64,000 bases of DNA from Gimesia sp. (lineage in GTDB: Bacteria > Planctomycetota > Planctomycetia > Planctomycetales > Planctomycetaceae). The DNA is taken from assembly GCF_040219335.1 (NCBI RefSeq), contig NZ_JAVJSQ010000005.1:124001-188000 (forward strand), in the 5' to 3' direction. The translations under genes were made by a program, and so were the position numbers. Position 1 is the first letter of the stretch, and the number at the start of each line of letters is the position of its first letter. Positions 38,056 to 62,468 of this stretch are shown piece by piece. The notes beneath the pieces are model-generated. The model had not been told where the DNA came from, made no database searches, and saw nothing but the letters and a program-made list of their open reading frames with translations.

Positions 38056-38319
38056 TACCACGAAAGACACGAAAAGCACGAAATGGGTCTTGTGTAAGTG
38101 CTGGCGAGATAAAGTGGGTACGAATTTAAGAAAACCGAACCGTGGGTGGTATCGGATGTAATCCGATATTGCCGGAGGCAACAGGAGGTCGCAGTGTGCG
38201 TGTGGTGCGTGGATGTGCCTTTTATAGGGGATGGAGTTGGTAGCTCTGTAGTGAATTGATCTGGTGAGCTGGGACCTCCTGCTCGCTGCGCTCGGCCCGA
38301 ATTACATTCGGGCTTACCC
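38056..38319 (+). repeat. Composite repeat copy 1 (modules A-B-C)
   Basis: Full copy. Module A at 38056-38083 is stuttered CACGAAARR. Module B at 38142-38194 is two adjacent hairpins, TATCGGAT-GTA-ATCCGATA and TTGCC-GGA-GGCAA. Module C at 38251-38319 is a block containing GCTCGCTGCGCTCGG and the hairpin CCCGAAT-TAC-ATTCGGG. It fills the 317-bp gap between an oxidoreductase and an esterase, and C ends 26 bp before the esterase ATG, so it lies in that gene's leader. Confidence 0.93.
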
Positions 38320-38345
38320 ATGATGTTTTAATAACTCAGGAAAAT

Positions 38346-39221
38346 ATGATGATATCGGGACGGTGCTTGAACAGACTGATGCGAGCTGGTCTGGTGGTGG
38401 GAGTCTGGTTGTCTGTTTCTGTAGTGAAGGCCGCAGAGCTGGAAACAGCAGAACTCTATCCGCGGATTGAAGTGGTTTCGTTTGAGAGTACGAGTCTCAA
38501 ACAGCGGAAGCGGGCTGTGATAGTGCTGCCGGAAAACTGGCGGTCGATCAAACCTGCGGAGCGGCGGACGCTGGTCATTCTGCATGGGCGGGGGCGGCAT
38601 GAGCGGTCGCTGGTGGATGACAAAGTGATTCGTCAGCAGCTGCTGGATTCAGGACTGTTTGTGATTCTGCCGGACGGCGATGACGGCTGGTACATCAATT
38701 CATCCGTACGCAAACAGGATGTGTACGAGACGTACCTGGAAGAGGTGCTGACGAAGATGGCGAACGCGTATGACCTGCCCGAACAGGGGGCGCAGTGGGC
38801 GATCGCGGGCTGGTCGATGGGCGGGTATGGCTGTGTGCGGTTTGCCGAACGGCATCCTGGTCGGTTTGCGGCGGTGAGTTCAATGATCGGGCTGCTCGAT
38901 TTTCCCCGCAATGGTCTGCCGGCGGGACAGTCTTACAAAGTGCCCGTGGAGCGGTTTGGTGCTGATGAAGTTGAATGGAACAAGTTCAATCCGTTGAATC
39001 AGGCGGAGAAACTGCGCGGGGTATCGCTGTTGATTATCACCGCGGACCAGGCGTTTGACCGGACGATGAACGAGCATTTTCGTGACCGGCTGACTGCGCT
39101 GGAGATTCCTCACCAATATGTGGAGCTCAAAGGGGGGCACACGTTTCCCGTGGTGCGGGCGGCGATTCCGCTGGTTCTGGCGCATACGCAACGCGTGCTA
39201 CTACGGAAGACGCGAAATTGA
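38346..39221 (+). CDS. Secreted esterase (esterase D / PHB-depolymerase-like alpha/beta-hydrolase)
   Basis: 291 aa, signal peptide (ending VVKAAE). Segments LVILHGRGRHERSLVDD, LPDGDDGWYIN and the nucleophile elbow G-W-S-M-G-G-Y-G mark an esterase-D-type alpha/beta-hydrolase; the late DQAFDRTMNEHF and GGHTFPV supply the acid and His. Probable exported carboxylesterase of short acyl chains. Composite repeats lie immediately on both sides. Confidence 0.87.
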   Translation: MMISGRCLNRLMRAGLVVGVWLSVSVVKAAELETAELYPRIEVVSFESTSLKQRKRAVIVLPENWRSIKPAERRTLVILHGRGRHERSLVDDKVIRQQLLDSGLFVILPDGDDGWYINSSVRKQDVYETYLEEVLTKMANAYDLPEQGAQWAIAGWSMGGYGCVRFAERHPGRFAAVSSMIGLLDFPRNGLPAGQSYKVPVERFGADEVEWNKFNPLNQAEKLRGVSLLIITADQAFDRTMNEHFRDRLTALEIPHQYVELKGGHTFPVVRAAIPLVLAHTQRVLLRKTRN

Positions 39222-39249
39222 TGCTGCCGCGAAAGACACGGAATTTTTT

Positions 39250-39503
39250 CTACCACGAAAGGCACGAAAGACACGAAAAAATTGCTGGTGTGGGGAGATC
39301 AATAAAAGAGTATTCCATGGGTGGTATCGGATGTAATCCGATATTGCCGCAGGCAACAGGAGGTCGCAGTGAATGCGATCTGTAGAGTGCGTGTTCCTCA
39401 AGCTCTTTTGATCAGCCAAGTGGGTTACTCTGTTGTGAATTGATCTCGTGAGCTGGGACCTCCTGCTCGCTGCGCTCGGCCCGAATTGTATTCGGGCGCA
39501 CCC
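39250..39503 (+). repeat. Composite repeat copy 2 (A-B-C)
   Basis: A at 39250-39278, B at 39317-39369 with stem TATCGGAT/ATCCGATA and second loop GCA instead of GGA, C at 39434-39503 with stem CCCGAAT/ATTCGGG and loop TGT. It sits between convergent genes, 8 bp from the stop of the minus-strand gene at 39511, so it could serve as a bidirectional end region. Confidence 0.93.
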
Positions 39504-39510
39504 GTCATGT

Positions 39511-40173
39511 TTAAAAATCATCATCATCCCGTCTCAGGTTCCGGTTACGGTACCAGAGTCCGATAGCGAAGATTGCTATCACGATCACAAAGAAAAATTT
39601 GAGGAGGTTAGTGAAAAGCTTGTAGGGCTTTTTTCTGGTTTCGGGGATGGGCGGTTTATACGAAGACTCTGGCGTTTGTGATTCTCCAATGAATTCGAAC
39701 GCGTCAAAGATCAGGTTGCGATTTTCTTTGTCGTCTAACTGATCACCGGGAAGGTTCAGGAATAGTGTGTAGATCTTTTGATGGGCAGCAAAAGTACGCG
39801 CAACAGTAAAGGAGTCCTCAGCCTTGATTTTTAGTAAATATTGATAACAGGGGACATCTTTAAAGACGATGAGTTTTCCACTCATGAATTTGACGGGATC
39901 TTCTTCCCGATAGGAGTTACGGATCTGAGCGATTGTGGAATCGTCGAGTTTTGCATCGTCCGGAGCATCCCGCGCTAAAAGCACCAGACTGATACCGGTG
40001 CCGTTCCTGCACTCAGCCAGAAAATTCGGAGGCAGTTCCTTCTCAGACCAGGTGAAAAAAGGATCTGGCAGCCTCAGACGACAGGAATAAGCGGGGAATT
40101 CTTTGACCCCAGGCGTTGTGTCCGGCTCTAACTGAAGAACAAAACAGGAGATTGCGGCGAGTGTATAGAGCAT
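39511..40173 (-). CDS. Membrane-anchored protein of unknown function
   Basis: 220 aa. An N-terminal hydrophobic segment (MLYTLAAISCFVLQL) may be a signal peptide. The main domain (residues about 20-170) is soluble with no family I recognise. A membrane helix near the C-terminus, LLKFFFVIVIAIFAIGLWY, is followed by a basic-then-acidic tail, RNRNLRRDDDDF. The predicted topology is an outside domain held by a C-terminal anchor. The stop is 8 bp from composite repeat copy 2. Confidence 0.75.
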   Translation of the reverse strand: MLYTLAAISCFVLQLEPDTTPGVKEFPAYSCRLRLPDPFFTWSEKELPPNFLAECRNGTGISLVLLARDAPDDAKLDDSTIAQIRNSYREEDPVKFMSGKLIVFKDVPCYQYLLKIKAEDSFTVARTFAAHQKIYTLFLNLPGDQLDDKENRNLIFDAFEFIGESQTPESSYKPPIPETRKKPYKLFTNLLKFFFVIVIAIFAIGLWYRNRNLRRDDDDF

Positions 40174-40317
40174 GATCTGCTTTCAGAAGTTTTTTTCTGA
40201 TCCTACATAACTGGTTTTGAGTTCGAAACAGAAATCAGTATAAGATAAGAGAAGTTTTATTGATTGAGTCACTCAAATTCAGTTCCAACCTTGTATCCCC
40301 TGCCTGTGAGTCCTGCC

Positions 40318-42627
40318 GTGAAAAAGATTGCTGTGTTATTTGCCTTTGTTTTGCTCTGTCTCCCTCCAGTGCTGGTGGTGGCCGATAATGTTTTGCCGAT
40401 GATTAATCTGTTGCAGAATCCCGGGTTTCAGTTACGCAAGACCGCTGATCCGGAACCGGGGCGTTCGATACTCTGCTGGAATACGGATCGCTGGGTGGAT
40501 GTGATCGGCGGAACGGCAGAGGACAAATCCAATCTCAACACATCAGCGAAAGCGGTGGAGATTCTGCCGGGTAAACGGATCTGGCAGTTTGCGACGCTGC
40601 CGGAACTGGGGCTCAAGGGCGGGAATGCAGTCAGTCTGTCAGTCAACGGGTATCAGGAACAGAGCGGGGCACTCAAGGCGCGGCTCTGTCTGATGCTGAT
40701 TGAAAGTGCCGACGGGCAGTGGTCGCCGGCGGACTTCGGAATGCCCGACAAGCGGACGTTTGCGAAGCACGGGCGAGGAGAGCTCGTACGCTCGCCGCAG
40801 TTGGAGGCTTCGTCTGAGGAGACGCAAAAAGAATTTCAGTTGCAGTTAAACGGACTCAAGATCGATCCCCGGTTTAAAGAACAGCGCGAATCGGATGCTG
40901 CGTTTCGCAATGTGGTGGGCGTGCTGGTCGAGTTTGTGAATGATTCTGACAAGCGGGTCTGGATTCAGTCTCCCGCACTGGTCAAAGGGGAGACTGCCGC
41001 GAAGACAGCACCGACCACGTCCCGCGCACTGCCCGAACTGTATCAGAAGATTCCCCGCACGATGCAGAAGCTGAGTACGGGACAGCCGATTTCGATCCTG
41101 ACGCTGGGGTCGAGCATCGACCGGGGGAGTGCCAATCCGCGGCTCTATTTTTATGACGAAGATCCCGCGAGCCCGCACTATAAGGAACCGCTGATCGAAG
41201 CCCGACCGGGTACGCCGGCCGCGATGAAACGGCTTATCGCAGAGCGGATGGGACGGCCCGATCTGCAGGATTATGTGGGCTGGTCGCAGCACTATTTCAT
41301 GTATACGGGACGGCTGCGACAGGAACTGCTGCGGAAGTATCATTATCCTGTCGACAGGATGCTGCTCAACGTAATGGCCTGCGATGGATCGTCGATTGGC
41401 GAATCGCACAGCGGCTTCAAAGCTTATGCGGAACTGGAACTGTCGCCCAACCCGAATGAGAACGGGCACCCGACCGGGAAGTCCTGGCAGGAACTGTATC
41501 CGGCGCTGTTTGAAAACGGAAACAAGCCGGGACCGGACCTGGTGATCTTCGGGCACGGGCATAACGAGCATATCGACCGACCGGATGAAATCGCCGCCTA
41601 TGAAGGAGCGATCCGCTGGTTTCAACGTCATTATCCCGGCGTCGAGTTTGTCTCCTGCATGTGGATTCGGGATAAAGGCTCTGCCAATTCGATGACGGAG
41701 CCGATGCAGGAGCTGTGCGCCTATTACGAAATTCCGTTCGTGGACATGGGGCAGTTGATCATCGATCTCAAAGCGACGACCAATTATTATGCGATGGCCC
41801 CCGATGGCGGGCATCCCGCCGCCGGCAGTCATTACCTGTGGTTCAAACAGCTGGAGCAGGTGTTCGAGATGCCGGCGGAAGCCACACTGCAGGGAGTGCC
41901 GCAAAAACAGTTGCCGCCGCGGATGAATGGGTATGCGCGGAACTGGGAAGGGACCATGGTCCGGTTTCAAAAAGACAGCCCGCGGCTTGTAGACGGGCGG
42001 ATGATGATCCTGGAAGACGCCGCGTTCAATCTGTGGGCGGATAACAAACGGGAGATGATGCAACTGCTGATCGATGGTCAGCCGGCAGAGCATGCGGGGC
42101 ATGGTCGCCACAGTTTCTCAGTTCCCAATCCGCGGAATTCGACGTTCGTGCATGGACGGCTGACACGCGGGGATCGGCACATCATCGAGATTCCGAATCC
42201 GAGTGCACGACTGAGTGTCGTGGATTGTAAGGTGGGATTGAAGCGTCGTTTCTATGGCGCGGATGCGCAGGGCTGGCAGGGGAAGTCTGCGGTAGAGGAG
42301 TTCGAATCGATGTGGGGCGCTCCGTATGGGGAAAAGGCGTTCCAACTGCAGCCGGGAGAGACGCTGGAGATTGAAGTGGAGGTGGATGAGCTGTCGATCG
42401 CCTGGCTGGATGATCCGGCAGGCGGGACGCTGGTGGCGGAGGTGGACGGCAAGCAGGCCTGGTCACAGCCGACGAATCAGCCGTTTACCGATTCGCAGGA
42501 GCGGAACCATTTTATTGAGAACCGTCGCGGCGTGTTGGGGCTGCCGTTCGGGAAGCATCGGATTCGGTTGCAGGCGGAAGGGAAGCCGGTGCGGGTGATT
42601 GGGGTGTTTGGTTATGATGGGCGGTAG
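40318..42627 (+). CDS. Secreted SGNH/GDSL-type hydrolase
   Basis: About 769 aa if it starts at GTG 40318, which gives a normal signal peptide (KKIAVLFAFVLLCLPPVLVVA); a TTG at 40264 is also in frame. The N-terminal 230 residues look like a carbohydrate-binding beta domain. Catalytic core: TLGSSIDRGS with Ser near 265, where most relatives have GDS; PDLVIFGHGHNEH (block III) and DGGHPAAGSHY (block V, Asp/His). A C-terminal beta domain follows (about 560-769). Probably deacylates an extracellular polysaccharide; substrate unknown. Confidence 0.85.
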   Translation: MKKIAVLFAFVLLCLPPVLVVADNVLPMINLLQNPGFQLRKTADPEPGRSILCWNTDRWVDVIGGTAEDKSNLNTSAKAVEILPGKRIWQFATLPELGLKGGNAVSLSVNGYQEQSGALKARLCLMLIESADGQWSPADFGMPDKRTFAKHGRGELVRSPQLEASSEETQKEFQLQLNGLKIDPRFKEQRESDAAFRNVVGVLVEFVNDSDKRVWIQSPALVKGETAAKTAPTTSRALPELYQKIPRTMQKLSTGQPISILTLGSSIDRGSANPRLYFYDEDPASPHYKEPLIEARPGTPAAMKRLIAERMGRPDLQDYVGWSQHYFMYTGRLRQELLRKYHYPVDRMLLNVMACDGSSIGESHSGFKAYAELELSPNPNENGHPTGKSWQELYPALFENGNKPGPDLVIFGHGHNEHIDRPDEIAAYEGAIRWFQRHYPGVEFVSCMWIRDKGSANSMTEPMQELCAYYEIPFVDMGQLIIDLKATTNYYAMAPDGGHPAAGSHYLWFKQLEQVFEMPAEATLQGVPQKQLPPRMNGYARNWEGTMVRFQKDSPRLVDGRMMILEDAAFNLWADNKREMMQLLIDGQPAEHAGHGRHSFSVPNPRNSTFVHGRLTRGDRHIIEIPNPSARLSVVDCKVGLKRRFYGADAQGWQGKSAVEEFESMWGAPYGEKAFQLQPGETLEIEVEVDELSIAWLDDPAGGTLVAEVDGKQAWSQPTNQPFTDSQERNHFIENRRGVLGLPFGKHRIRLQAEGKPVRVIGVFGYDGR

Positions 42628-42678
42628 GGACCACTAAGGGGGCGAAAAATACTACTGCGAAAGGCTTGGGTTTTTTTC

Positions 42679-42780
42679 TACCACGAAAAGCACGAAAGAC
42701 ACGAAAAGGGTTTCAGGCAGGAGTGCGTGTGAGAAAGTGGGTGGTATCGGATGTAATTCGGTATTGCCGGAGGCAACAGG
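42679..42780 (+). repeat. Composite repeat copy 3, modules A-B
   Basis: A at 42679-42707 and B at 42737-42780. B's first stem reads TATCGGAT/ATTCGGTA, where both changed positions remain G-T wobble pairs. The C module is not in its usual place about 70 bp downstream; a C copy appears only at 43121, after a small open reading frame. Confidence 0.88.
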
Positions 42781-42847
42781 AAATTGATAATAAATTGAAC
42801 GACCATTTTTGATTCACGGTATGAAATAATATCAGACCGAGCAGCCC

Positions 42848-43021
42848 ATGAAACGAATGTATAAAATTCGGCTACTGACAATGGAACTCTGTGTGGCATT
42901 GCTCTCAATAGTTTTCATCTGGGCTATGTTGTGGGGGTTGTATTATCTATTGATGCTGTGGTATGCGATTATTGATTTCTGCTACTGGATTGGATTCGAA
43001 TACTTCAGTTTCAGGGTTTGA
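42848..43021 (+). CDS. Possible small membrane protein (57 aa)
   Basis: ATG 42848 to TGA 43021. The product is short and strongly hydrophobic: a basic start (MKRMYKIRLL), then a long apolar segment (CVALLSIVFIWAMLWGLYYL) and an aromatic-rich tail. No good ribosome site is seen. It lies between modules B and C of a composite repeat, where other copies have only a short spacer. Similar to no family I know. An expressed small protein is plausible but unproven. Confidence 0.4.
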   Translation: MKRMYKIRLLTMELCVALLSIVFIWAMLWGLYYLLMLWYAIIDFCYWIGFEYFSFRV

Positions 43022-43120
43022 TTTTATGAGGCATCGTGCTGCCGGATCTGATTCCGTGTTGATGCAGACGAAAAGTTGAGCGGGCTCTTCGATTCCTGTG
43101 CTCTCAATTGGGGATCACTG

Positions 43121-43192
43121 TTATGAATTGTTCTCGTGAGCTGTGACCTCTTGCTCGCTGCGCTCGGCACGGATTGCATCCGTGCCCACCCT
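43121..43192 (+). repeat. Composite repeat copy 3, module C
   Basis: C block with GCTCGCTGCGCTCGG and terminal hairpin CACGGAT-TGC-ATCCGTG, the alternative stem sequence of this family. It probably completes the A-B copy at 42679. Confidence 0.85.
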
Positions 43193-43242
43193 CTAAGATG
43201 CTTGTCTGATCTGGTTCCATTGAGCGGGGAAATGAACTCGTT

Positions 43243-43373
43243 CGCCGTGAGGCGGGCGGGCACGTGGGCACCGCCCCTACGTTTGAGTTGAGGAGCGGTC
43301 TTTCTCAGTTGGGTGGTTTCTCTGTCAGTTTCCTGCTCGCTGCGCTCGGCCCGAATTTTATTCGGGCTTACCC
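43243..43373 (+). repeat. Composite repeat modules D and C
   Basis: A GC-rich segment, GCGGGCGGGCACGTGGGCA followed by CCGCCCC (43251-43280, here module D), precedes a truncated C at 43321-43373 with hairpin CCCGAAT-TTT-ATTCGGG. The same D-then-C arrangement recurs at 62583-62711, and D alone at 57481-57510. Most of the rest of 42628-43547 is repeat or AT-rich spacer. Confidence 0.8.
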
Positions 43374-43547
43374 GTTTCTGTTGCGTATGTTCAATCTCTG
43401 CAGTGCTTTATGTTCTTTTATGCCTGCTCGGTTTGATGAATAAATATCTTTTTATCAGAAACTGCGTTAGATTGGGGATGGTTGATCTAATGAACTGATA
43501 CAGGATGTTTTGAATCGACCTGACTTGCGCGCGGAAGGGCCTTTGTT

Positions 43548-44078
43548 TTGACGAATCGTGATCTGGATGAGGAATATGTGGCGTTGATTGCCGGGAGCCA
43601 GCCTGTGTTGCGGGGGCTGCTGGTGGCGCTGATTCGTCGGGCGGCCGATGTGGATGATGTGCTGCAGGAGACGAATACCGTCCTGTGGCGGAAGCGGGAT
43701 GAGTATGACCCGGAGCGGGTGTTTCTGCCCTGGGCGTGCCGGATTGCTCAGCTGCAGGCGCTGGCCTTTTTCAAGCGGGTGCGGAACGACGGTCAGGCGG
43801 TGCTGGAAGAATGGACGCTGGAGCAGATCGCGGCTGCGACGACGCGGCGGGCGATCGAGGCGAAATCGCATACGGAGGCGTTGACGCACTGTATGGAAAA
43901 GCTGCCGAGTTCGCATCGACAACTGGTGGAGAGCCGGTATCGGGATGCGGTACCCGTGAATCAGATCGCTGCGGATGAGGGGCGGTCGGCGGATGCGGTT
44001 TCGATGACCCTGTATCGCATTCGCAAAACACTGATGGAGTGCATCCAGAAGACGATGGCCCGGGAGGCGCAGACATGA
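43548..44078 (+). CDS. ECF-type RNA polymerase sigma factor
   Basis: 176 aa, start TTG 43548 with a GGAAGGG site 9 bp upstream; no ATG is suitable. Region 2 (ADVDDVLQETNTVLWRKRDEY, FLPWACRIAQLQALAFFKR) and region 4 (LPSSHRQLVESRYRD, IAADEGRSADAVSMTLYRIR) are clear; the protein matches the ECF group common in Rhodopirellula and Verrucomicrobium relatives. It overlaps the FecR-domain gene by 4 bp (ATGA), the classical sigma / anti-sigma layout, and heads a four-gene operon to 50410. It probably directs RNA polymerase to that operon. Confidence 0.93.
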   Translation: MTNRDLDEEYVALIAGSQPVLRGLLVALIRRAADVDDVLQETNTVLWRKRDEYDPERVFLPWACRIAQLQALAFFKRVRNDGQAVLEEWTLEQIAAATTRRAIEAKSHTEALTHCMEKLPSSHRQLVESRYRDAVPVNQIAADEGRSADAVSMTLYRIRKTLMECIQKTMAREAQT

Positions 44079-45829
44079 ATTCCCCCGACGATGCTTTGCG
44101 GAATGAACTGGCGCGGCTGACCAGCCGGTTGATGGCGGATGAGCTGACGACCGATGAGGATGCGCGGCTGACCGAGATATTAAATGATCATCCGGAGCTG
44201 ATCGAAGAATACACGGACCAGCTGCACCTGGATCAGCTATTGAGCACGAACCTGTATGCGTCGGTGCCGGACGGGATTAGCCTGGAGACGCTGGAAGCGG
44301 ATGCGGTGACTGAGGACGCGCCTGTGGTGGTGAAAGCCACGGCTGCGGGAGCCGCGGGGAGTGGCTTCGGTTATCTGGCGCAGGTATCTGTGGTCGTCGT
44401 GCTGCTGATTCTGGTGGGGAGCTTTGTCTGGTTCCGGGGAAACGGAGAGACGAACTTACCTGAGGAGCCGGTGGTGGTCACTCCCGAACCGCTGATTGAG
44501 CTGCCTCGTTATGTGGGGATGCTGCTGGATACAGAGGATGCGGTCTGGGAAGACGAGCAACTGGGGGATGACATCGCTTATGGAACCCGGTTTACCGCGG
44601 GGAAGCAGCTGTGGCTGAAATCGGGGATTGCCCGGATTCGCTTTGAAAGCGGGGCGGGCGTGGTGCTGGAAGGTCCCGCACAGATTGAGCTGAATTCGTC
44701 CATGAATGCGAAGTTGAACTATGGCAAGCTGGCCGCCTATGTGCCTGACGAAGCGCATGGGTTTACCGTCGATACGCCGAAGATGGAGATTGTCGATCAG
44801 GGGACGCGGTTCGGGACGGTCGTCGATCCGCTCGGGAAGGCCGAAGTGCATGTGTTTGAGGGGGAAGTCGATATCAAACCCAAGGCGCAGGCAGAGCAAC
44901 CCCGTAATCTGAAAGCGAGCCAGGCGGTGCTGTTCACACGCGGGAATGCACAGGGGGCCGACATCCGGGTGACGCCGACCAAGTTTGCAGATGTGCCGAC
45001 GCCGGAACAGCTGATTGCGGCGAAATCGGGAAACTATCCGCCGTTAGAAGCAGTACCCTTTGAAGCGGAAGCACCCTTCAATGAATTCGCGCTGCTGCAC
45101 ATCAATACGGCATTACCCAAAAACATTCTGGCAGGGGAAGCATTCGAGTACCGAGCGACTTCTTTGTCAGAGCAGACCGGGGGCGTGGGCTTCGGTCATG
45201 AGGGCTGGTGGGCTGATCCGAATTTTACGCGGCTGATGGTTCCCGAACAGCGTCTGCAGTGGGGCGCACTGGAGGGGGGACCGATGGTATTGCAATCCCG
45301 CGGTCATCATCATGCCTATCCTTCGCTGGCACATCGCATGGCCCGCAAACTGGCAGAACCGCTCACCGAAGACTTCTATTTCAGTCTGCTGGTGAAGTAC
45401 GAAGGGCTGGACAAGAATGATTTCTTTGCACTCTGGTTCGACGATGTGGCGGGCGGCAAGGGGAGCAGCCATTCGCGGGTGCCCAACTTCGGCTTGAAAG
45501 AGAAACAGTTCTTTACCCGTTTCGAGGTGAACAAGGAAGGCTTTTCCAGGGAACTGATCGACGGGGAATGTTTTCTGCTGGTGGGGCGTGTGATGAAAGA
45601 TCAGTCGTCTGATTTCAATCGCCTGGAATTCTGGGTGAATCCGGACGGTGATCGGAGCGCGAATCCGGATGCCGTGGTGCAGCAGGAAACAGGGGCGAAG
45701 CCGTTAAAAGAGATCAACGTCGTGGGAATGCGGATTGGACAGTACACGGAAGTTTCTGATTCCCTGTTCGTGGATCGACTGGTACTGGGGAAGACTTTTG
45801 CATCAGTGACACAACCTGTAGAGAATTGA
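44075..45829 (+). CDS. FecR-domain membrane protein (probable anti-sigma) with C-terminal LamG-like domain
   Basis: 584 aa from ATG 44075. Cytoplasmic N-terminus (ELARLTSRLMADELTTDEDA) suited to sigma binding, one membrane helix at about 101-120 (LAQVSVVVVLLILVGSFVWF), then a FecR domain at about 140-245 with IRFESGAGVVLEGPA and IVDQGTRFGTVV. Residues about 345-580 form a jelly-roll-like domain that reads FLLVGRV, FNRLEFWVNPDGD and FVDRLVLGKTFASV; the next gene's N-terminal part has the matching [20 protein letters not shown] and [14 protein letters not shown]. The shared domain suggests the regulator and enzyme recognise related ligands. Confidence 0.88.
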   Translation: MNSPDDALRNELARLTSRLMADELTTDEDARLTEILNDHPELIEEYTDQLHLDQLLSTNLYASVPDGISLETLEADAVTEDAPVVVKATAAGAAGSGFGYLAQVSVVVVLLILVGSFVWFRGNGETNLPEEPVVVTPEPLIELPRYVGMLLDTEDAVWEDEQLGDDIAYGTRFTAGKQLWLKSGIARIRFESGAGVVLEGPAQIELNSSMNAKLNYGKLAAYVPDEAHGFTVDTPKMEIVDQGTRFGTVVDPLGKAEVHVFEGEVDIKPKAQAEQPRNLKASQAVLFTRGNAQGADIRVTPTKFADVPTPEQLIAAKSGNYPPLEAVPFEAEAPFNEFALLHINTALPKNILAGEAFEYRATSLSEQTGGVGFGHEGWWADPNFTRLMVPEQRLQWGALEGGPMVLQSRGHHHAYPSLAHRMARKLAEPLTEDFYFSLLVKYEGLDKNDFFALWFDDVAGGKGSSHSRVPNFGLKEKQFFTRFEVNKEGFSRELIDGECFLLVGRVMKDQSSDFNRLEFWVNPDGDRSANPDAVVQQETGAKPLKEINVVGMRIGQYTEVSDSLFVDRLVLGKTFASVTQPVEN

Positions 45830-45863
45830 ACGCGGATTTTGACTCAAGAGGATTGAAGGCAGG

Positions 45864-48800: not shown

Positions 48801-48941
48801 GGACGTAAGCCGAATGCGCAGGAGCGGCTACGGTCGCTGGTCTTCTTTGAAGGTGAAGAGACTGCGGATGCGGCGCCCCGGCGGCTTTCGATGTTGTGTC
48901 ATGCGTTAATGAATCTCAACGAGTTTATGTATATTCCCTGA
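45864..48941 (+). CDS. Planctomycetal cytochrome / DUF1549-DUF1553 protein with N-terminal LamG-like domain
   Basis: 1025 aa with signal peptide (about 1-33). Residues 35-280 form the LamG-like domain shared with the FecR protein upstream. Then a haem motif C-F-N-C-H near 312 (PSCyt1), DUF1549 with [20 protein letters not shown], a second Cys pair in [11 protein letters not shown] near 612 and DUF1553 (PSD1) from about 740 to the end. Starts 34 bp after the FecR gene and ends 14 bp before its DUF1501 partner. Likely ECF-controlled. Confidence 0.93.
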
Positions 48942-48955
48942 AGGCGAGGGCTTTG

Positions 48956-50762: not shown

Positions 50763-50777
50763 CGTGGAGTCGTTTGA

Positions 50778-51275: not shown

Positions 51276-51371
51276 CAGCCCTTTTCCCAAGAGATGTCTC
51301 GATTTTCCGAGACTTGATGGTCAGTATATACTTTAGCCATGCCTCATCGCTCAAGCAAGAAAAACGCAAAC

Positions 51372-51401: not shown

Positions 51402-51425
51402 GACTGTGAATCGCTCGAAAATTTC

Positions 51426-51701
51426 TACCTCGAAAGAGACGAAAGTTTTGCTACCACGAAATTCACGAAAGACACGAAAATTTTGCTGATGCAGGTTGGT
51501 GGCGTTGCGGGAGCGGATGTGGGTGGTACCGGATGTAATCCGGTATTGCCGGAGGCAACAGGAGGTTGCGGGGCAGACATTGTGAAGAGCACGCGTTCCT
51601 CAAGCTAAGTTGAATTAGTTGGTGATTCTGTCGTGAATTGCTCTGGTGAGCTGGGACCTCTTGCTCGCTGCGCTCGGCCCGAATTGCATTCGGGCCCACC
51701 C
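51426..51701 (+). repeat. Composite repeat copy 6 (A-A-B-C), duplicate of copy 5
   Basis: A degenerate A at 51426-51445 is followed by a normal A at 51452-51480, B at 51519-51570 (stem TACCGGAT/ATCCGGTA) and C at 51633-51701 (stem CCCGAAT/ATTCGGG). The spacer between A and B is virtually identical to that of copy 5, as expected if the two arose by segmental duplication. Confidence 0.92.
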
Positions 51702-51778
51702 CTGGTTTAACTTTGATTGGTTCCTGGGGAATCTTTAGATCTTCGAAAACGGCGTCTAGCGCCTTGCCGCTCATTTTT

Positions 51779-53317: not shown

Positions 53318-53341
53318 ATTGAGCCTCACTTGCTGAATGAA

Positions 53342-54448: not shown

Positions 54449-54636
54449 CGCAGGTCCTCCTGTGTAGAATTCATGATGTGAGAAGTGATTTGAAAGACCT
54501 CACTATAGATTATATACGTGGAAAATCGGTTTTCTGATTGAGTTTCTGTTTTCGCAGGTTTTGACGTATTAATTTATAGAGACGCCACTTGACTCTAACA
54601 TAAGTGGTAGAAATTAAAAAACATTGGAGATAAACC
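54449..54636. promoter_or_regulatory. Divergent promoter region of the lysine-type cluster
   Basis: 188 bp between divergent genes. It contains an inverted repeat CCACTT at 54585-54590 and AAGTGG at 54602-54607 (11-bp gap), close to the plus-strand gene, and an AT-rich stretch near 54500-54580. GGAGA at 54626-54630 is the ribosome site of the plus-strand gene. Confidence 0.45.
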
Positions 54637-56001: not shown

Positions 56002-56003
56002 TG

Positions 56004-56293
56004 GTACCACGAATCGCACGAATTTTTTTGCTACCACGGCCAGCACGAAAGACACGAAAATTATGCTGGCGCAGGTTAGTTGCGTTACCGGAGCGGATGT
56101 GGGTGGTACCGGATATAATCCGGTATTGCCGAAGGCAACAGGAAATTGTCAAGGTAGAGGTGCGAACTGGTAATTCTCTTTCCGACCTCAGTTCAGAATG
56201 GTTTTGAGAACAAACTAACTGTTACTTGGTTGGTGGCAACACTGTCAGTTTCTTGCTCGCTGCGCTCGGCCCGAATTGCATTTGGGCTTACCC
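56004..56293 (+). repeat. Composite repeat copy 7 (A-B-truncated C)
   Basis: Two A blocks (56004-56024 partial, 56032-56060), B at 56099-56142 with first loop ATA instead of GTA and second loop GAA, and a C at 56245-56293 that lacks its usual start and has stem CCCGAAT/ATTTGGG with one wobble pair. Fills the gap between the VOC-like gene and the convergent secretin-domain gene. Confidence 0.9.
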
Positions 56294-56343
56294 GGGGAGG
56301 GGCGAAACAGTGCTGGGGCAGAGTGTGAAATCGTGTTGTTCGA

Positions 56344-57192
56344 TTATTCTTCAAAATTAACCGGTGTGACCATAAACAGGGTTACGGTCTCTGACTCGTC
56401 ATTAGTGTTCGAGACTGTTTTCACCACCAGCGTTTCACCGAGATTCATTTCTGCCTTGGTGCTGACGCGTCGCACTGTCAGACCGGGGACCGTGGTGCCG
56501 TTGACCTGGACCGCGTTTGCAAAGTCCGGTTCTGAGATCTCAGGAGAGAAACGGAGCAGGATTTTACCATTCTCCAGCAGAACCAGATCGACTTTGCAGA
56601 TGACGCCAAATTCTCTCCATTCGACTGTGGGCTGCTTGTCACCTGCCGGGACTGGGATCGGAAATTCGCCGCCACTTTTAAAGGTCGCTGGTTTCCCTGG
56701 CCTCGTCACAATCTGCGGACTGGCGTGGACCAGCTTGATTTTTCCTTCGCGTTTCAGCTTCGCGAAGACCGATTCGGCATTGCTGTAAATTGCGACTCCT
56801 GATTGAACCTGATTCAAAGGCTTCGCTGCTGCTGCAAATTCTTCTGCAGCGTCCGGGGTGAGTTCCAGAATACAACAGCGGCATAAAATCTGAGCCGACG
56901 TTCCCACCAGCTGTTGCAGTTGTTTTGCCTGTGTCTCCAATTCCGCCTGTTTCTGGCGAATGCGTTGTTTGATCTGCAGGGAGAGTTCCCGCAATTTCTC
57001 TGCTTCTGTTTTCAGGCCCGCCGCCTGCAGTTGTTCTGTTGCCAGGCGAAGATGATCGAGGGCTGCTGGCCGCTGATTAGTTTCAGGGGTGACCTGTTTC
57101 AGCAGACCCGGACGTTCCTGCGGATCAGCAGCCAGGCAAACCGTACCCAAACAGAGCAGACAGGCAAAAACAATGCGACCAAGAACCGGCAT
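56344..57192 (-). CDS. Secreted protein with a secretin-type (type II/III secretion) C-terminal domain
   Basis: 282 aa. Signal peptide (ending VCLAAD), a helical stretch about 40-95 (LRLATEQLQAAGLKTEAEKL, LEKQ-like), then from about 130 to the end a secretin-like beta-domain: ASPQIVTRPGKPATFKSGGE, FPIPVP, VEWREFGVICKVDLVLL, ILLRFSPEISEPD and TVPGLTVRRVSTKAEMNLGE. It lacks the N0/N1 domains and is far shorter than true secretins (usually >450 aa). It may be a partner that inserts into an outer-membrane secretin ring, or a stand-alone planctomycete variant. Confidence 0.82.
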   Translation of the reverse strand: MPVLGRIVFACLLCLGTVCLAADPQERPGLLKQVTPETNQRPAALDHLRLATEQLQAAGLKTEAEKLRELSLQIKQRIRQKQAELETQAKQLQQLVGTSAQILCRCCILELTPDAAEEFAAAAKPLNQVQSGVAIYSNAESVFAKLKREGKIKLVHASPQIVTRPGKPATFKSGGEFPIPVPAGDKQPTVEWREFGVICKVDLVLLENGKILLRFSPEISEPDFANAVQVNGTTVPGLTVRRVSTKAEMNLGETLVVKTVSNTNDESETVTLFMVTPVNFEE

Positions 57193-57297
57193 CCTGAACC
57201 TCCTTGAAATTGGACGAGCAACGGGAGGCTGGATGCTATCAGTTCTTTACAAATTGTGTCAATGTGATCTGCAACTGGACTGTCGTGTGTTAATTGC

Positions 57298-57424
57298 TAC
57301 CACGAAAGGCACAAAAGACACGAAAATTATGCTGACGCAGGTTGGTGATTCTGTTGTGAATTGCTCTGGTGAGCTGGGACCTCTTGCTCGCTGCGATCGG
57401 CACGGATTACATCCGCGCCCACCC
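57298..57424 (+). repeat. Composite repeat copy 8 (A-C, module B deleted)
   Basis: A at 57298-57326 runs straight into C at 57355-57424. The join, GCAGGTTGGTGATTCTG, fuses the post-A spacer to the pre-C spacer, both of which contain GTTGGT in full copies. C stem is CACGGAT/ATCCGCG with one A-C mismatch. Module D appears alone at 57481-57510. Confidence 0.88.
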
Positions 57425-57515
57425 GGGGTTGGGGGCTTGCTATCGTTCCTTTGGAAGTGTGGTTCTGATTTGTTATTCGCCAGGCGGGCGGGCACATGGT
57501 GCCGCCCCTGTTTTT

Positions 57516-58826
57516 TTAGACTTCCGGTAGAACCCAGGGTTTGCGCCATTCTTCTCGGCCGCGGAGCTGGTTGGCGGCGTCGTCGTTTTTGAAGGTTTCG
57601 GTTTCGGGATCGAGAGTCAGGGTGCGGCCGATGCGGGCGGCGATGTTGCCGGCGTGGCAGAGGATGGAGGCCGGGTGACCTACCGTTTCCAGATCGCAGG
57701 CCGGTTTGCTGCGGGTCTTGATGCAGTCGAGGAAGTTGGCCACGTGCGGGCCGGCGTCACTGTCCCCTTTGACTTCCTTGATCAGCTTGCCGCGCTCACC
57801 GTACACGCGCCAGCGACTGTTGCCGATGGTCATGTGGGCTTTATCGCCGTAGATGACGGCGCCTTCTGATTCGCCGTGATAATGGTAGGGGGCCCAGATC
57901 CGCATTTCGTAGGTGAGGATCTTGGGCGTATCGCTCTGGTATTCGTAGGTGACCTGCAGAGTGTCGGGCCATTCCTGCATGTCGTCGAAGTACCATTTGC
58001 CGCCGGTCGCGGAAATTTTGGAGGGGAGCGAAATCGCGGCGTCACCCTGTGCTTCACAAGCGGCGTTGAGCGCGGCGAAGGCCATGTCGAGACGATGTAC
58101 GCCGTCGTTGCCCAGGTCGCCGGTGCCGTAATCGTGGAACCAGCGCCAGCGGCCGTGGAAGCGGTTTTTATTGAAGGGGCGTTTTTTGGCAGGGCCGAGC
58201 CACATGTCGTAATCGACGGTGTCGGGGGGCGTGCTGTCGGGCGGGTAGCCGATGTTTCCCTGCCGGGTGCTTTCCCAGGCTTTGGCGACGAGGCAGCGAC
58301 CGAGGGCACCGCTGCGGATGTAGGCGAGGGCGGACTTCAGGCGTTCGGTGGAACGGTGCTGCGAGCCCAATTGCACGACGCGGTTGTGTTTTTTCATGGC
58401 GGCGACCATCCGCTGGCCTTCGACGATGTTGTGGCCGTCCGGCTTTTCGACGTAGACATCTTTGCCAGCCTGGCAGGCGAGGATCGTGGGGATGGCGTGC
58501 CAGTGATCGGGAGTGCCGACCACGATGGCGTCGAGACTGTTGTCGTCGAGCAGGTGGCGGAAATCGCGGATGACTTCAGGTTTCTTTCCCTGCAGTTTGG
58601 TGACGGTGTCCACGGTGTTGCCGAGGCGGGCGGAATCGATCTCGGCGATGGTGACGATTTCGGCCTGGGAGTTTTCCGCGAAGTGACGGTTGAGAGCGGC
58701 AGCACGGCCGCCGGCACCGATCACGCCGACGCGGATGCGTTCGCTGGCGGCGGCTTTAGCAACCTGATCCAGGGAGAGGGTGGCCAGCCCGGCGGCTGAA
58801 CCCTGTAGAAACGTCCTGCGGTCCAT
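57516..58826 (-). CDS. Gfo/Idh/MocA-family oxidoreductase (Tat-exported)
   Basis: 436 aa from ATG 58826, chosen for the twin-arginine leader D-R-R-T-F-L-Q. Dinucleotide-binding RVGVIGAGGRAAAL near 32-45, then VGTPDHWHAIP and the family signature E-K-P at 127-129. Gfo/Idh/MocA proteins oxidise or rearrange sugars with NAD(P); exported planctomycete forms are frequent. Composite repeats lie on both sides. Substrate unknown. Confidence 0.9.
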   Translation of the reverse strand: MDRRTFLQGSAAGLATLSLDQVAKAAASERIRVGVIGAGGRAAALNRHFAENSQAEIVTIAEIDSARLGNTVDTVTKLQGKKPEVIRDFRHLLDDNSLDAIVVGTPDHWHAIPTILACQAGKDVYVEKPDGHNIVEGQRMVAAMKKHNRVVQLGSQHRSTERLKSALAYIRSGALGRCLVAKAWESTRQGNIGYPPDSTPPDTVDYDMWLGPAKKRPFNKNRFHGRWRWFHDYGTGDLGNDGVHRLDMAFAALNAACEAQGDAAISLPSKISATGGKWYFDDMQEWPDTLQVTYEYQSDTPKILTYEMRIWAPYHYHGESEGAVIYGDKAHMTIGNSRWRVYGERGKLIKEVKGDSDAGPHVANFLDCIKTRSKPACDLETVGHPASILCHAGNIAARIGRTLTLDPETETFKNDDAANQLRGREEWRKPWVLPEV

Positions 58827-58937
58827 GGTGTGTGCTCCTGACTGGTGAGACACGGTGGTGGGAGACGGATAAACGAACTTTTATTATAGGAAGCAGGGAT
58901 TCGAGAGCAAAAGAAAACTGGGAGATAGGTTTTTTTC

Positions 58938-59175
58938 TACCACGAACGGCACGAAAAGCACGAAAGTCTGCTGACGCAGGTTGGTTGTGTTACGGGAGCG
59001 GATGTGGGTGGTACCGGATGTAATCCGGTATTGCCGGAGGCAACAGGATGTCGCAGGGTAAACGATGTGAAGAGTACGCGTTCCTCAAGGTAAATTAATT
59101 TAGTTGGTGGCTCTGTTATGAAGTGATCTCATGAGTTGGGGCATCCTGCTCGCTGCACTTAGTCTTTCCCGCCTG
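58938..59175 (+). repeat. Composite repeat copy 9 (A-B-degenerate C)
   Basis: A at 58938-58965, B at 59003-59056 (stem TACCGGAT/ATCCGGTA), then the usual spacer and a decayed C at 59118-59175 in which the terminal hairpin is replaced by CTTTCCCGCCTG. The same decayed form ends the array at 61470, so the two are related by descent. Confidence 0.9.
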
Positions 59176-59237
59176 CCTGTGGTTTGCAGATCAGCGGTAG
59201 GTTAAAATGAAATCAGTGATTTTTTGATGGCTGACTA

Positions 59238-59277
59238 TGATACCATGGCCAAGACTGTGATACCATGGCCAAGACTG
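59238..59277 (+). repeat. Short tandem repeat, 2 x 20 bp
   Basis: Two exact copies of the 20-bp unit TGATACCATGGCCAAGACTG back to back, just upstream of a possible small membrane protein gene. The unit contains the palindrome CCATGG. A replication slippage product or a dimeric binding site are both possible. Confidence 0.85.
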
Positions 59278-59306
59278 TTGAGTGATTTGAGAGCGGAGGC
59301 AGGGCG

Positions 59307-59525
59307 GTGATCCAAACGAATAAACTGGTTGCTTGCCAAATTGGGATACTGATCATCATTGTGGTCTCTTTTGTGACCTGCAGTCTGATGATTTTTCAGG
59401 GGATTACAGAACTGGCGCTTGTCGGGTTTTTGGGAATCTTTCTTTTCCTGCCAAGATTGCCTCGCATAATCTTTATTCCCTGGGGGGGGGACAATGCTTC
59501 CGCATACGTCACTGAATCGTTTTGA
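59307..59525 (+). CDS. Possible small membrane protein (72 aa)
   Basis: GTG 59307 with GGCAGGG just upstream. Two apolar helices (IGILIIIVVSFVTCSLMIF and ELALVGFLGIFLFLPRLPRI) then a short polar tail. Low complexity and AT-rich. An opposite-strand frame of 105 codons covers the same bases but has no hydrophobic or other pattern. Plausible but not certain. Confidence 0.45.
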   Translation: MIQTNKLVACQIGILIIIVVSFVTCSLMIFQGITELALVGFLGIFLFLPRLPRIIFIPWGGDNASAYVTESF

Positions 59526-59645
59526 AGATCCTCTGGAAAAACTGGCTCTCATATTATTTTATCTCATTCTGGTCCTGAAAGCAGTGCACTATTTCTGCTT
59601 TAGCTGAATGGGGATATTCAGAGCAGTGAGTAATTGAATCAATTC

Positions 59646-60068
59646 ATGAAAGCGTTTCAACCGGTATGTATTGATCGGCCTGAGTGGGCCAGGGAACCCG
59701 ATGTCTGGCTGGACCGGATCAGGTTGCGCGATTATCAGCTGTTGCAGTCTCATCGCTCCTCGATTCTCAAGCTGGTCCAGAATGAAGTGGCTCAATACTT
59801 GAATACAGACGATCTGGTATTTTTTGATCCGGCTGATGGTTTTCCGGTCCTGCCACGAATGACCGGTGAGTATTATATCTCCGATGAATCCTACTCGGGA
59901 AATGTCGGACCATACTGGTTTGAGATTCGCATTCAGACTCACTTTCTGGAACGCCAATGGATGGATGGTCAAACGGATTTCGATTATCTGGGCCTGGAAG
60001 TTTGTCTGCGATATGATCCGGAAAAAGATGAGTTGGAAAGCCTGGGAATTAATTCTTCAGCGATTTAA
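59646..60068 (+). CDS. Small soluble protein of unknown function
   Basis: 140 aa from ATG 59646 (TTG 59634 possible). Acidic, aromatic-rich and without signal or membrane segment: FQPVCIDRPEWAREPDVWLD, FFDPADGFPVLPRM, and DYLGLEVCLRYDPEKDELES near the end. I recognise no family. It is AT-richer than the main operons and sits with the 98-aa gene at 60176 in a repeat-bounded stretch, so it may be an accessory gene. Confidence 0.65.
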   Translation: MKAFQPVCIDRPEWAREPDVWLDRIRLRDYQLLQSHRSSILKLVQNEVAQYLNTDDLVFFDPADGFPVLPRMTGEYYISDESYSGNVGPYWFEIRIQTHFLERQWMDGQTDFDYLGLEVCLRYDPEKDELESLGINSSAI

Positions 60069-60175
60069 GAGCCGGACATTATTTAGATTGCGAGTTTATT
60101 TCTTTGCTTGCTGACTCTACTGTAAAATGGTTGATGGAAAGACTCCTTATATTGCATTCCAAGTGACTGGTTTCT

Positions 60176-60472
60176 ATGGCAATTCCGCGCATCTATGCCG
60201 ACTTTAATAAACTGGATCGGGATCGAAATGCGATCCTGGTTTGTGCCGGGACATGGCGGGATCTGGAAGAACAGGGGTTACAGTTTTCTCGCGGAATGAA
60301 AGTCATCTTAAGTCAGCCGGATGATATCGATGAAGCTGGTAATCCGGATTTTCTGGAAACGCCTGCGGTGATCGACTACGACCAGGAACATCAGTACTGG
60401 ATCGGACGGTTTGACTGGGATGAACTTGAATATCGATCCGTGAAAGAAAAGAGACTGCCGGATTCTACTTGA
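60176..60472 (+). CDS. Small soluble protein of unknown function
   Basis: 98 aa, start ATG 60176. Segments include YADFNKLDRDRNAILVCAGT, FSRGMKVILSQPDD, TPAVIDYDQEHQYWIGRFDW. It reads like a small OB- or beta-barrel-type domain, with no catalytic motif. It lies 107 bp after the previous gene, same strand. Similar one-domain proteins are widespread as hypothetical proteins in planctomycetes. No function assigned. Confidence 0.65.
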   Translation: MAIPRIYADFNKLDRDRNAILVCAGTWRDLEEQGLQFSRGMKVILSQPDDIDEAGNPDFLETPAVIDYDQEHQYWIGRFDWDELEYRSVKEKRLPDST

Positions 60473-60549
60473 GTAATCGGTATGCGGTACCTCCTGGTGA
60501 TCCGGTTGCGGATGAGGTTTTCAAATGTTTGAATGGGCCGGGCTCTCAG

Positions 60550-61522
60550 TTATGAATGGATCTGGTGAACTGGGACCTCTTGCTCGCTGTGCTCGGCCCG
60601 AATTGCATTCGGGCTTACCCGGTGGGAGGGGGATCTCAAATTCACTGTCGGGCAAGCCGACAGATGGCACCCGGTGGAAATTTTCTACCACGAAAAGCAC
60701 GAAAGACACGAAAAAATTACTGGTAGGAGTACCAGAGATAAAGTGGGTGATACCGGATGTAATCCGGTATTGCCGGAGGCAACGGGAGGTCGCAGGACAA
60801 ACGATGTGAAGAGTATGCGTTCCTCAAGGTAAATTAATTTAGTTGGTGGCTCTGTTATTCATTGATCTGGTGAGCTGGGACCTCCTGCTCGCTGCGCTCA
60901 GCACGGATTTCATCCGCGCCCACCCGGTTTGATCGTGGAATACGTGAAGGTTTTACTACCACGAAAGACACGAAAGGCACGAAAAAATGCTAATGCAGGT
61001 TGGTTGTGTTGTGGGAGCGGATGGGGGTGGTACCGGATGTAATCTGGTATTGCCGGAGGCAACAGGAGGTTGCAGGGCAAACGATGTGAAGAGTACGCGT
61101 TCCTCAGGGTAAGTTAATTTAGTTCATGGTTCTGTTATGAATTGATCTCGTGAGTTGGGACCTTCTGCTCGCTGCGCTCGGCACGGATTACATCCGCGCC
61201 CACCCGGTTTGATCGTGGAATACGTGAAAGTTTTACTACCACGAAAGACACGAAAAGCACGAAAAAATGCTAATGCAGGTTGGTTGTGTTATGGGAGCGG
61301 ATGTGGGTGGTACCAGATGTAATCCGGTATTGTTGGAGGCAACAGGAAGTCGCAGGGCAAACGATGTGAAGAGTATGCGTTCCTCAAGGTAAATTAATTT
61401 AGTACATGGCTCTGTTATGAAGTGATCTCATGAGTTGGGGCATCCTGCTCGCTGCGCTTGGTCTTACCCGCCTGCTGGAGGATCTCGATTTCATTGTCGG
61501 GCAAGCCGGCAGATGGCACCCG
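60550..61522 (+). repeat. Tandem array of composite repeats (C-E-[A-B-C]x3-E)
   Basis: Begins with C (60550-60620) and E (60646-60674), then three units: A 60686, B 60743, C 60855; A 60957, B 61023, C 61135; A 61237, B 61303, C 61415 (decayed), with unit lengths of 271 and 280 bp. Units two and three are joined by the same GTTTGATCGTGGAATACGTG linker. E ends the array at 61491-61522. B-stem variants ATCTGGTA (wobble) and TACCAGAT (one mismatch) occur. Array ends 46 bp from the DUF3309 gene. Confidence 0.93.
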
Positions 61523-61567
61523 ACGTTACCGCGAACCTGCTGGGGTCGTCGGGTGGAGTTGATTCGA

Positions 61568-61714
61568 TCAAAGGAGGACCAGCAGCAGAATGATCAGCAG
61601 GATCAGGCCCAGTCCGCCGCTGGGTCCGTAACCCCAGCTACGACTGTATCCCCAGGTGGGGAGTGCACCGATGATAAACAGAATCAGAACGATCAGAAGT
61701 ATGGTCTCCAACAT
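61568..61714 (-). CDS. DUF3309 small membrane protein (48 aa)
   Basis: ATG 61714 to TGA 61568, preceded by an AAGGA site. The product, MLETILLIVLILFIIGALP then TWGYSRSWGYGPSGGLGLI and a hydrophobic end, is a near-textbook DUF3309 protein (about 50 aa, two short helices around W-G-Y-G-P-S-G-G-L-G). The family is common in proteobacteria and planctomycetes and its role is unknown. It lies between the two repeat arrays. Short enough to be missed by usual gene callers. Confidence 0.9.
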   Translation of the reverse strand: MLETILLIVLILFIIGALPTWGYSRSWGYGPSGGLGLILLIILLLVLL

Positions 61715-62054
61715 GATGTGGTTCCTTTGCTAAACGCACCACAGCCTTCAACGGTCAATTGGCTGTTTTCTTGAACGGCTTCGATTTATTGTTGAATCGA
61801 ATAAGGCAGCTTGCGTGCCGAGGAAGGAAAAATGAGCCGAGAATATTGAAACGGGACGGGAAACCGTTGGCACAACGGGAGATCCGGCAGGGCTTTTTTT
61901 GAGATTTCCATTTTTAGTGATGCGTAGTGTGCGGGGAAACGGCGTCTGTCTGCGGGCTGGTGAACCCGACTGATCGGCGAACCGCCAGTGGAGGATTGCT
62001 GGCTCGGTTGGAGAAGATGTGTTTCCAAGGGAATCGGAATACAGTTGGTTGCTC
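61715..62054. other. Intergenic region upstream of DUF3309 gene
   Basis: 340 bp with no convincing gene and no composite repeat until a C at 62055. Open frames on the minus strand at 61748-62182 run through repeat sequence and have no protein-like pattern. It must hold the promoter of the DUF3309 gene. Confidence 0.4.
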
Positions 62055-62468
62055 TGTTGTGAATTGATCTGGTGAGCTGGGACCTCCTGCTCGCTGCGCT
62101 CGGCACGGATTGCATTCGCGCCCACCCGGTGGGAACCCGAAATGGATTCGAATTTTACTACCACGAAATTCACGAAAGGCACGAAAATCTGCTGACGCAG
62201 GTTGGTTGTGTTGTGGGAGCGGATGGGGGTGGTACCGGATGCAATCCGGTATTGCCGGAGGCAACAAGAGGTCGCAGGGCAAACGATGTGAAGAGTATGC
62301 GTTCCTCAAGGTAAATTAATTTAGTTGGTGGCTCTGTTGTGAATTGACCTCATGATCTGGGACCTCTTGCTCGCTGCGCTCGGCACGGATTTCATCCGCG
62401 CCCACCCGGTTGGATCGTGGAATACGTGAAATTTATTTACTACCACGAAAGACACGAAAGGCACGAAA
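62055..62468 (+). repeat. Second tandem array of composite repeats (C-A-B-C-A)
   Basis: C 62055-62127, A 62159-62187, B 62225-62277 (first loop GCA), C 62338-62408 (stem CACGGAT/ATCCGCG) and a final A at 62441-62468 after the linker GGATCGTGGAATACGTG. Linker and order match the array at 60550. The last A is followed by unrelated sequence. Confidence 0.92.

Follow-up and report, generated by a model that had tools for sequence, protein, structure and literature searches.

REP-class double-hairpin repeats and REPIN-like doublets with marked strand polarity in a Gimesia genome

The comparisons reported here concern the B and C repeats that cluster between genes in a 64,000-nucleotide stretch of a Gimesia sp. 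genome (contig NZ_JAVJSQ010000005.1, positions 124,001 to 188,000; the whole stretch is called the window below). We consider it very probable that these are repetitive extragenic palindromic (REP) units, that the B–C pairs are REPINs (REP doublets) of a planctomycete lineage of REP-associated tyrosine transposases (RAYTs); the units, we infer, spread as single strands at replication forks. REP and REPIN are a known class, of which the double-hairpin unit and the marked strand polarity described here are variant features. A first-pass annotation, made from the letters of the window, had read three modules, A, B and C, as one composite assembly that it could not assign to a known element class. 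B and C are instead REP units in inverted doublets, resembling REPINs or bacterial interspersed mosaic elements (BIMEs), with a cognate RAYT in five sister species, and C is not a third module but the inverted form of the B unit.

Unit anatomy, covariation and pairing

Read on its own strand, C has the layout of B, namely GG, a GTRR foot, hairpin 1 (8 bp and a 3-nt loop), hairpin 2 (five positions and a 3-nt loop), CAGGA and a tail that is mostly of the GGTCNCAG or AAYTGNCA type. Window units were called at E<=0.01 by means of a covariance model, R1, for which 74 units from the window's own genome served as the training set (75 were collected by pattern and the poorest one was removed). It finds 26 units, 11 B on the plus strand and 15 C on the minus strand, within 38144–62710, and neither a B or C unit (by R1) nor a copy of module A (by its own search) in positions 1–38000. 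With 13 copies of module A, all on the plus strand, and one further, badly decayed C recognized by eye at about 59140, these are the counts of the first-pass annotation (at least 13 A, 11 B and 16 C), whose list of copies was reproduced by repeat finding and profile searches. Shuffling the final 28 kb of the window 20 times with dinucleotides preserved gave a best unit score of 10.2 bits, while the same profile finds 25 units in the real window, 24 of them at 30 bits or more and the weakest at 14.1. All the stem variants that had been quoted were located, with the B stem as TATCGGAT/ATCCGATA at 38144 and 39319 and as TACCGGAT/ATCCGGTA at 50503, 51521 and 59006, wobble forms at 42739 and 61025, and the C stem as both CCCGAAT/ATTCGGG and CACGGAT/ATCCGTG.

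Covariation was judged by counting pairs against shuffles in the 74 units. Cells are paired in 89.3% of cases (71.6% when shuffled), both sides have changed in 157 cells (50.9 when shuffled), and the covariation score is 0.436 against 0.140, a value that none of 500 shuffles reached; sliding the pairing partner abolishes the signal. The changes do preserve pairing, as had been proposed, and a folded form is supported. Since the collecting pattern fixed CGRAT/ATYCG and part of hairpin 2 (allowing up to four mismatches), and thus parts of both hairpins, the freest test comes from the three outermost pairs of hairpin 1, which alone escaped this filter; they show G-C/U-A/C-G and similar exchanges. 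For hairpin 1 as a whole, 99.2% of cells form pairs. The earlier description of a second hairpin that keeps TTGCC/GGCAA around a varying loop holds for B-type units, in which hairpin 2 is Watson–Crick (TTGCC-GNA-GGCAA), and fails for C-type units, which mostly have CGAGC-GCA-GCGAG with G/A mismatches at the middle two of the five positions; over the whole set, two of five positions are unpaired in 46/74 and 49/74 cells. Since single-stranded DNA forms stable structures with tandem sheared G-A pairs and with GNA triloops, the G/A mismatches and GNA loops of C-type hairpin 2 are at most a hint towards a DNA form.

Doublets were counted in regions surrounding matches in the window's own genome, 664 kb in total, which hold 158 units (56 B, 95 C and 7 unclassified, the last being counted as C-like below, for 102 C). 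A GNA triloop closes hairpin 1 in 45/56 B and 78/102 C units and hairpin 2 in 48/56 and 92/102. The foot is GT[AG]G in 44/56 B and 51/102 C units, and in its relaxed GTRR form it is present in 87/102 C units and in 133/158 units overall. Once the C-like units are included, all 30 outward-facing inverted pairs are B:C, about 181 nt long (28 span 171–193 nt, the other two 244 and 264 nt), and 98 of the 158 units are unpaired. Tails agree within pairs at 0.70 against 0.54 when shuffled, with none of 2000 shuffles reaching this value, and both tails belong to one loose class in 27 of 30 pairs. Folded as single-stranded DNA, REPIN 3 of Table 1 reaches −39.9 kcal/mol (z −7.55), with hairpins at its ends and a central stem formed by both tails; four units folded singly gave z from −3.0 to −5.4, the proposed double hairpin being the exact minimum in one. 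Spacers are more alike between neighbours, with an alignment score per base of 0.66 at 30 kb or less (35 doublet pairs) against 0.47 farther apart (400 pairs), which fits local spread or tandem duplication, and at 60.7–61.5 kb three copies are spaced exactly 280 bp apart.

The transposase and its distribution

The Y1 genes of the genus were listed and 33 sources, mostly Y1 loci, were scanned with R1. Five sister-species genomes encode a protein of 169–172 aa (frameshifted in one; loci L178, L179, L180, L181 and L182), with an inverted R1 doublet on each side of the gene, and at E<=1 the only other of the 33 sources to be matched was L194, about 4 kb from its transposase. The four intact proteins all score 113–124 bits with the NCBIfam model for REP-associated tyrosine transposases (NF047646, cut-off 80) and 24–30 bits with the IS200/IS605 model (NF033573, cut-off 55); they belong to the Y1 transposase superfamily (PF01797), and DHVH (HUH) and Y[IM]HMNP (Tyr) motifs were seen by eye in the translations. 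By protein search, close relatives (72–82% identity to the query) are confined to these five genomes. Units thus flank a Y1 transposase gene, which goes part of the way towards the alternative named in the first-pass annotation, that the copies are the ends of a known insertion sequence. That the repeats are miniature inverted-repeat elements (MITEs), non-autonomous derivatives of a DDE insertion sequence, or else recombination sites like those of integrons, seems to us highly improbable: inverted ends and near-fixed length would suit such elements, but the unit consists of two hairpins and is no simple terminal repeat, and the genes found framed by units are Y1 RAYTs (DDE transposases and integrases near units were not searched for).

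The association extends beyond the genus. Seven non-genus genomes, chosen for their R1 matches, all contain RAYT relatives at 48–53% identity. Of 13 such loci, 8 lie within 1.5 kb of a diverged R1 unit at E<=0.01, and several of these have outward-facing units on both sides; three fragmentary loci, two of which have units, were excluded from the 13. More distant Y1 homologues (29–38% identity) had a unit within 1.5 kb at none of 14 loci. The covariance-model search of relatives that the first-pass annotation had recommended finds units in 17/17 genus genomes, at 1 to at least 150 copies per genome (at least 150 matches in the window's own), and, in an order-level sample of 100 genomes, in 26, 14 of them in the genus and 12 outside. 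Within that sample a RAYT at E<=1e-35 is present in 11/12 R1-positive non-genus genomes against 20/74 R1-negative ones (Fisher p 3e-5). A pattern survey of 61 genomes, with one other member of the genus, had suggested that the repeats were unique to this species, a view overturned by the genus search. When the window's aldehyde dehydrogenase gene was compared with contigs, no genus locus appeared among the best 80 matches, from which near records were possibly excluded.

Protein searches found no cognate RAYT in the window's genome, and the window copies therefore look like orphans. Its two Y1 genes (L001, 1204–1878, and L002, 1456–2142) score 66 and 69 bits, under the NF047646 cut-off of 80, and by R1 scan neither has a B or C unit in 1.5 kb on each side, on which ground they were rejected as drivers of the repeats. 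L002 is flanked by inverted GGGGTCAG and L001 by inverted GGTGTCAG with a GGGGTCAG pair nearby; they are probably TIRYT-type genes. At the response-regulator locus that houses the RAYT in other genomes, units remain in all six genomes examined that lack a RAYT there (G000, G066, G062, G070, G067 and G068). Clean excision of a RAYT from this locus was rejected, since in G000 and G066 its place is taken by different DNA with an open stretch in it; the RAYT might have been lost when its flanking doublets recombined. In G000 a B-type unit beside the response regulator (L250, about 7906–7938) lacks most of hairpin 1 and the foot in comparison with G066 (L251, 7312–7362), as if the palindrome had been deleted in G000.

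Strand polarity and a proposed mode of spread

The sign of GC skew was read from as much as 16 kb of sequence surrounding each element, in which units were masked by 350 nt. In the own-genome regions the negative-skew strand carries 71/72 single C units, the C of 27/30 pairs and 22/26 single B units. Gene direction does not account for this orientation: of the pairs and single C units (102 in all), skew is followed by 38/39 in convergent or divergent gaps and by 22/22 with both flanking genes against skew. When skew was computed in coding DNA only, as a mean of the two gene strands, for the 115 of 128 elements with genes on both strands nearby, agreement is 64/64 for single C units, 24/27 for pairs and 20/24 for single B units; counted by region (C units and pairs only, ties excluded) it is 40/42. 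An artefact of the units' own composition is ruled out by the masking and by the coding-only averaged skew. Nor is the polarity specific to this REP, since in these unit-bearing regions module A lies on the positive-skew strand in 41/45 copies, and the negative-skew strand carries 10/10 copies of a GGGTGCCAT hairpin repeat and 14/14 of a GTAGGGGC repeat (only REP units were masked in these counts).

These data bear on an RNA reading, in which the hairpins act in neighbouring mRNAs as stability or termination signals. The covarying stems, and the position of 112 of 128 elements outside open reading frames (ORFs) of at least 150 aa by a simple ORF finder, would suit it; orientation that follows skew regardless of genes does not, and Rfam 15 gave no match at E<=0.1 in window positions 37000–64000. 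We rate this reading, towards which the first-pass annotation had leaned in proposing a folded RNA or DNA form, as quite improbable; an RNA role for the units is unsupported, though they may have one secondarily.

Across eight further species, agreement with skew holds for 113 of 132 elements (one same-type pair was unscored), the misses being 10/46 in G068, 7/26 in G062 and 2/25 in G064. The regions were picked around strong matches, Y1 or response-regulator loci, except for 20 evenly spaced ones in G066, and their elements are partly orthologous, so that not all are independent. The complete genome G066 begins with dnaA, dnaN and gyrB on the plus strand. To the right of these genes most samples as far as 3.3 Mb have positive skew, which makes the leading strand G-rich in that part. 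Elements of G066 track local skew even off the simple origin–terminus picture, at 1.25, 4.80 and 6.56 Mb, as expected if hypothetical inversions had flipped both. Along its sequence C1, skew is strong in most samples from dnaA to 3.3 Mb, apart from a patch at 1.23–1.30 Mb where it is reversed, and in the other half it is mostly weak and mixed.

Replication-coupled spreading of single strands would be the best reading of this polarity. A RAYT may have cut and joined units as single strands exposed at replication forks, so that every new copy went in the same way round with respect to the fork, and clusters such as that at 60.7–61.5 kb may then have grown by local tandem duplication; in this species the copies are now probably inherited, duplicated and decaying rather than mobilized, unless another Y1 protein acts on them. 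In Pseudomonas fluorescens, REP tandem arrays run forward at about 2 Mb and in reverse at about 4 Mb, according to passages of Bertels and Rainey (PMC3116915), and may possibly parallel the polarity seen here. The literature searched, as titles, abstract openings and passages, gave no account of a general REP strand polarity or of these repeats.

An alternative that we regard as doubtful, and yet deserving of weight, holds that the polarity reflects strand-biased survival or function rather than insertion, units entering both ways and one orientation persisting, either because the strand with the stabler hairpins suffers more deletions when it forms the exposed lagging-strand template, or because copies in that orientation have a chromosome-scale role; KOPS and Chi are oriented chromosome-scale sequences elsewhere. 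It gains from a polarity in the window's own genome that is nearly absolute and common to unrelated repeats, and from the unit strand, mostly GNA-looped, being on the negative-skew strand, as deletion bias predicts under the usual convention. Inverted pairs, however, have one unit on each strand and yet keep a fixed order in 27/30 cases, module A is polarized though hairpinless by inspection, and a chromosome-scale role fits poorly with the 1, 5, 15 and 31 copies of the sister genomes G038, G063, G072 and G067. A broader proposal strikes us as a little less likely still, and speculative: that all the intergenic repeat families here, namely the REP units, the GTAG-type repeat, the GGGTGCCA hairpin repeat and module A, are copied by a common single-strand process coupled to the replication strand, which would continue after RAYT loss and make their orientation a dense fossil record of fork direction and inversions.

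Several observations weigh against RAYT-driven spread at forks as we propose it. Four of the five RAYTs adjoin the same response-regulator gene, and they are therefore orthologous rather than five independent insertions; 5 of the 13 related non-genus loci have no unit at E<=0.01; and within the genus RAYT presence (5/14) does not track units (14/14), several RAYT-less genomes being unit-rich (G000, at least 150; G066, 148; G062, 137; G070, at least 150), to which we add the missing RAYT of the window's genome and the unit-free flanks of its Y1 genes. No precise insertion site was recovered: the window's genome and G066 are about 94–98% identical over aligned stretches of at least 1 kb, and the doublet at contig C29:304306, absent in G066 and only part-matched in G064, has ragged junctions in this examined presence/absence case. 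Hairpin 1 agrees between pair partners at 0.65, below the shuffled 0.71, which indicates that the doublet is not maintained as a single perfect palindrome. Since the polarity is common to three other repeats, hairpinless module A among them, it is no pointer to this RAYT. By the usual leading-strand convention, moreover, single units lie on the leading-strand template and not on the lagging-strand template reported for IS608, so that the complement may be what is processed, or copying may differ, or survival may be biased.

Co-located repeats, coordinates and known systems

Module A, a CACGAAAG stutter, lies at variable distance from and in variable orientation to the units, and for 11 of the 45 copies that were counted no unit stands within 400 nt; it is a separate, co-located repeat and not part of the REP unit, and the A-B-C assembly dissolves accordingly. 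A literature search with its sequence found nothing, as did one for Gimesia together with repetitive extragenic palindromic sequences. A second hairpin repeat, GGGTGCCAT-CTGTCGG-CTTG-CCCGACA, is on the minus strand at 50731–50762, 60643–60674 and 61492–61523. The GTAGGGGC repeat is of a GTAGGGGCGGTGCCC type, which resembles another GTAG REP family and is on the minus strand at 43237–43267, 57469–57499 and 62575–62605. Positions 50380–50453 and 51372–51445, running from upstream into two neighbouring doublet regions, share 74 nt at 95% identity, as if flank and element had been duplicated together, with an ORF (50778–51290) between them. At 59239–59278 a 20-nt unit, GATACCATGGCCAAGACTGT, stands in direct tandem repeat.

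Table 1. Positions in the window of REP units, doublets (REPINs) and module A
Feature	Position	Strand	Components and remarks	Basis
REPIN 1	38144..38319	+	B 38144-38194 (+), C 38269-38319 (-)	R1, pair analysis
REPIN 2	39319..39503	+	B 39319-39369 (+), C 39453-39503 (-)	R1, pair analysis
Single B unit	42739..42789	+	AAT-type tail	R1
Single C unit	43141..43191	-		R1
Single C unit	43323..43373	-	AAC-type tail	R1
REPIN 3	50503..50683	+	B 50503-50553 (+), C 50633-50683 (-)	R1, pair analysis, single-stranded DNA fold
REPIN 4	51521..51701	+	B 51521-51571 (+), C 51651-51701 (-)	R1, pair analysis
REPIN 5	56101..56293	+	B 56101-56151 (+), C 56243-56293 (-); AAT/AAC-type tails	R1, pair analysis
Single C unit	57374..57424	-		R1
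B unit of REPIN	59006..59056	+	C end decayed (~59140)	R1; decayed end by eye
Single C unit	60570..60620	-		R1
REPIN 6	60745..60925	+	B 60745-60795 (+), C 60875-60925 (-)	R1, pair analysis
REPIN 7	61025..61205	+	B 61025-61075 (+), C 61155-61205 (-); 280 bp downstream of REPIN 6, tandem	R1, pair analysis
B with decayed C	61305..61469	+	B 61305-61355 (+), C 61435-61469 (-); third copy of 280-bp tandem	R1
Single C unit	62077..62127	-		R1
REPIN 8	62227..62407	+	B 62227-62277 (+), C 62357-62407 (-)	R1, pair analysis
Weak C-type unit	62661..62710	-	29 bits	R1
Module A, 13 copies of ~29 nt	38055..62468	+	Co-located, outside REP unit; starts 38055, 39250, 42678, 50433, 51451, 56031, 57297, 58937, 60685, 60956, 61236, 62158, 62440	

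Passages of the published work on REP, REPIN (BIME) and RAYT (TnpA-REP) describe a GTAG super-family of short, high-copy extragenic palindromes with a GT[AG]G-like foot by the stem, inverted outward doublets that are often heterodimers with complementary spacer ends, and a RAYT gene flanked by units (PMC3733652, PMC6006769, PMC3116915). The present repeats share these features, the GT[AG]G-like foot in part of the units. They differ in that the unit consists of two abutting hairpins, mostly with GNA triloops, in the relaxation of the C-type foot to GTRR, in that all 30 pairs are B:C, in a marked GC-skew orientation, and in unit-rich species in which no RAYT was found. With the IS200/IS605 family they share the Y1 superfamily (PF01797) and a regular orientation of copies, which for IS608 and ISDra2 is reported, in the passages of PMC5371812 used here, to follow replication, with a preference for the lagging-strand template; unlike that family, the RAYTs fall below the NF033573 cut-off, units are dispersed without a transposase, and single units occupy the strand opposite to the simple lagging-template expectation. 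Among TIRYTs and TIRtrons (subclass 2.1 TnpA-Y1), the GGGGWSAS motif given in passages of PMC3733652 and PMC6006769 fits the inverted GGGGTCAG of L002, and the TIRYT-like L001 and L002 are set apart from the B/C repeats by their unit-free flanks. Class 3 TnpA-Y1 proteins of Planctomycetes likewise have high-copy structured flanks, with a CnGA foot and YV[VI][AENY]EQ where the present system has GTRR and Y[IM]HMNP, as far as the passages of PMC6006769 describe them.

Finally, considering that REPIN movement is still largely inferred, the repeats described here may prove informative in two respects. Their doublets are asymmetric, B differing from C, and orientation is therefore readable; it hugs local strand asymmetry, as copying of single strands at forks would leave it. 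Since some species of the genus have the RAYT and others do not, and unit numbers run from 1 to at least 150, both the dependence on the RAYT and the coupling to strand are directly testable.

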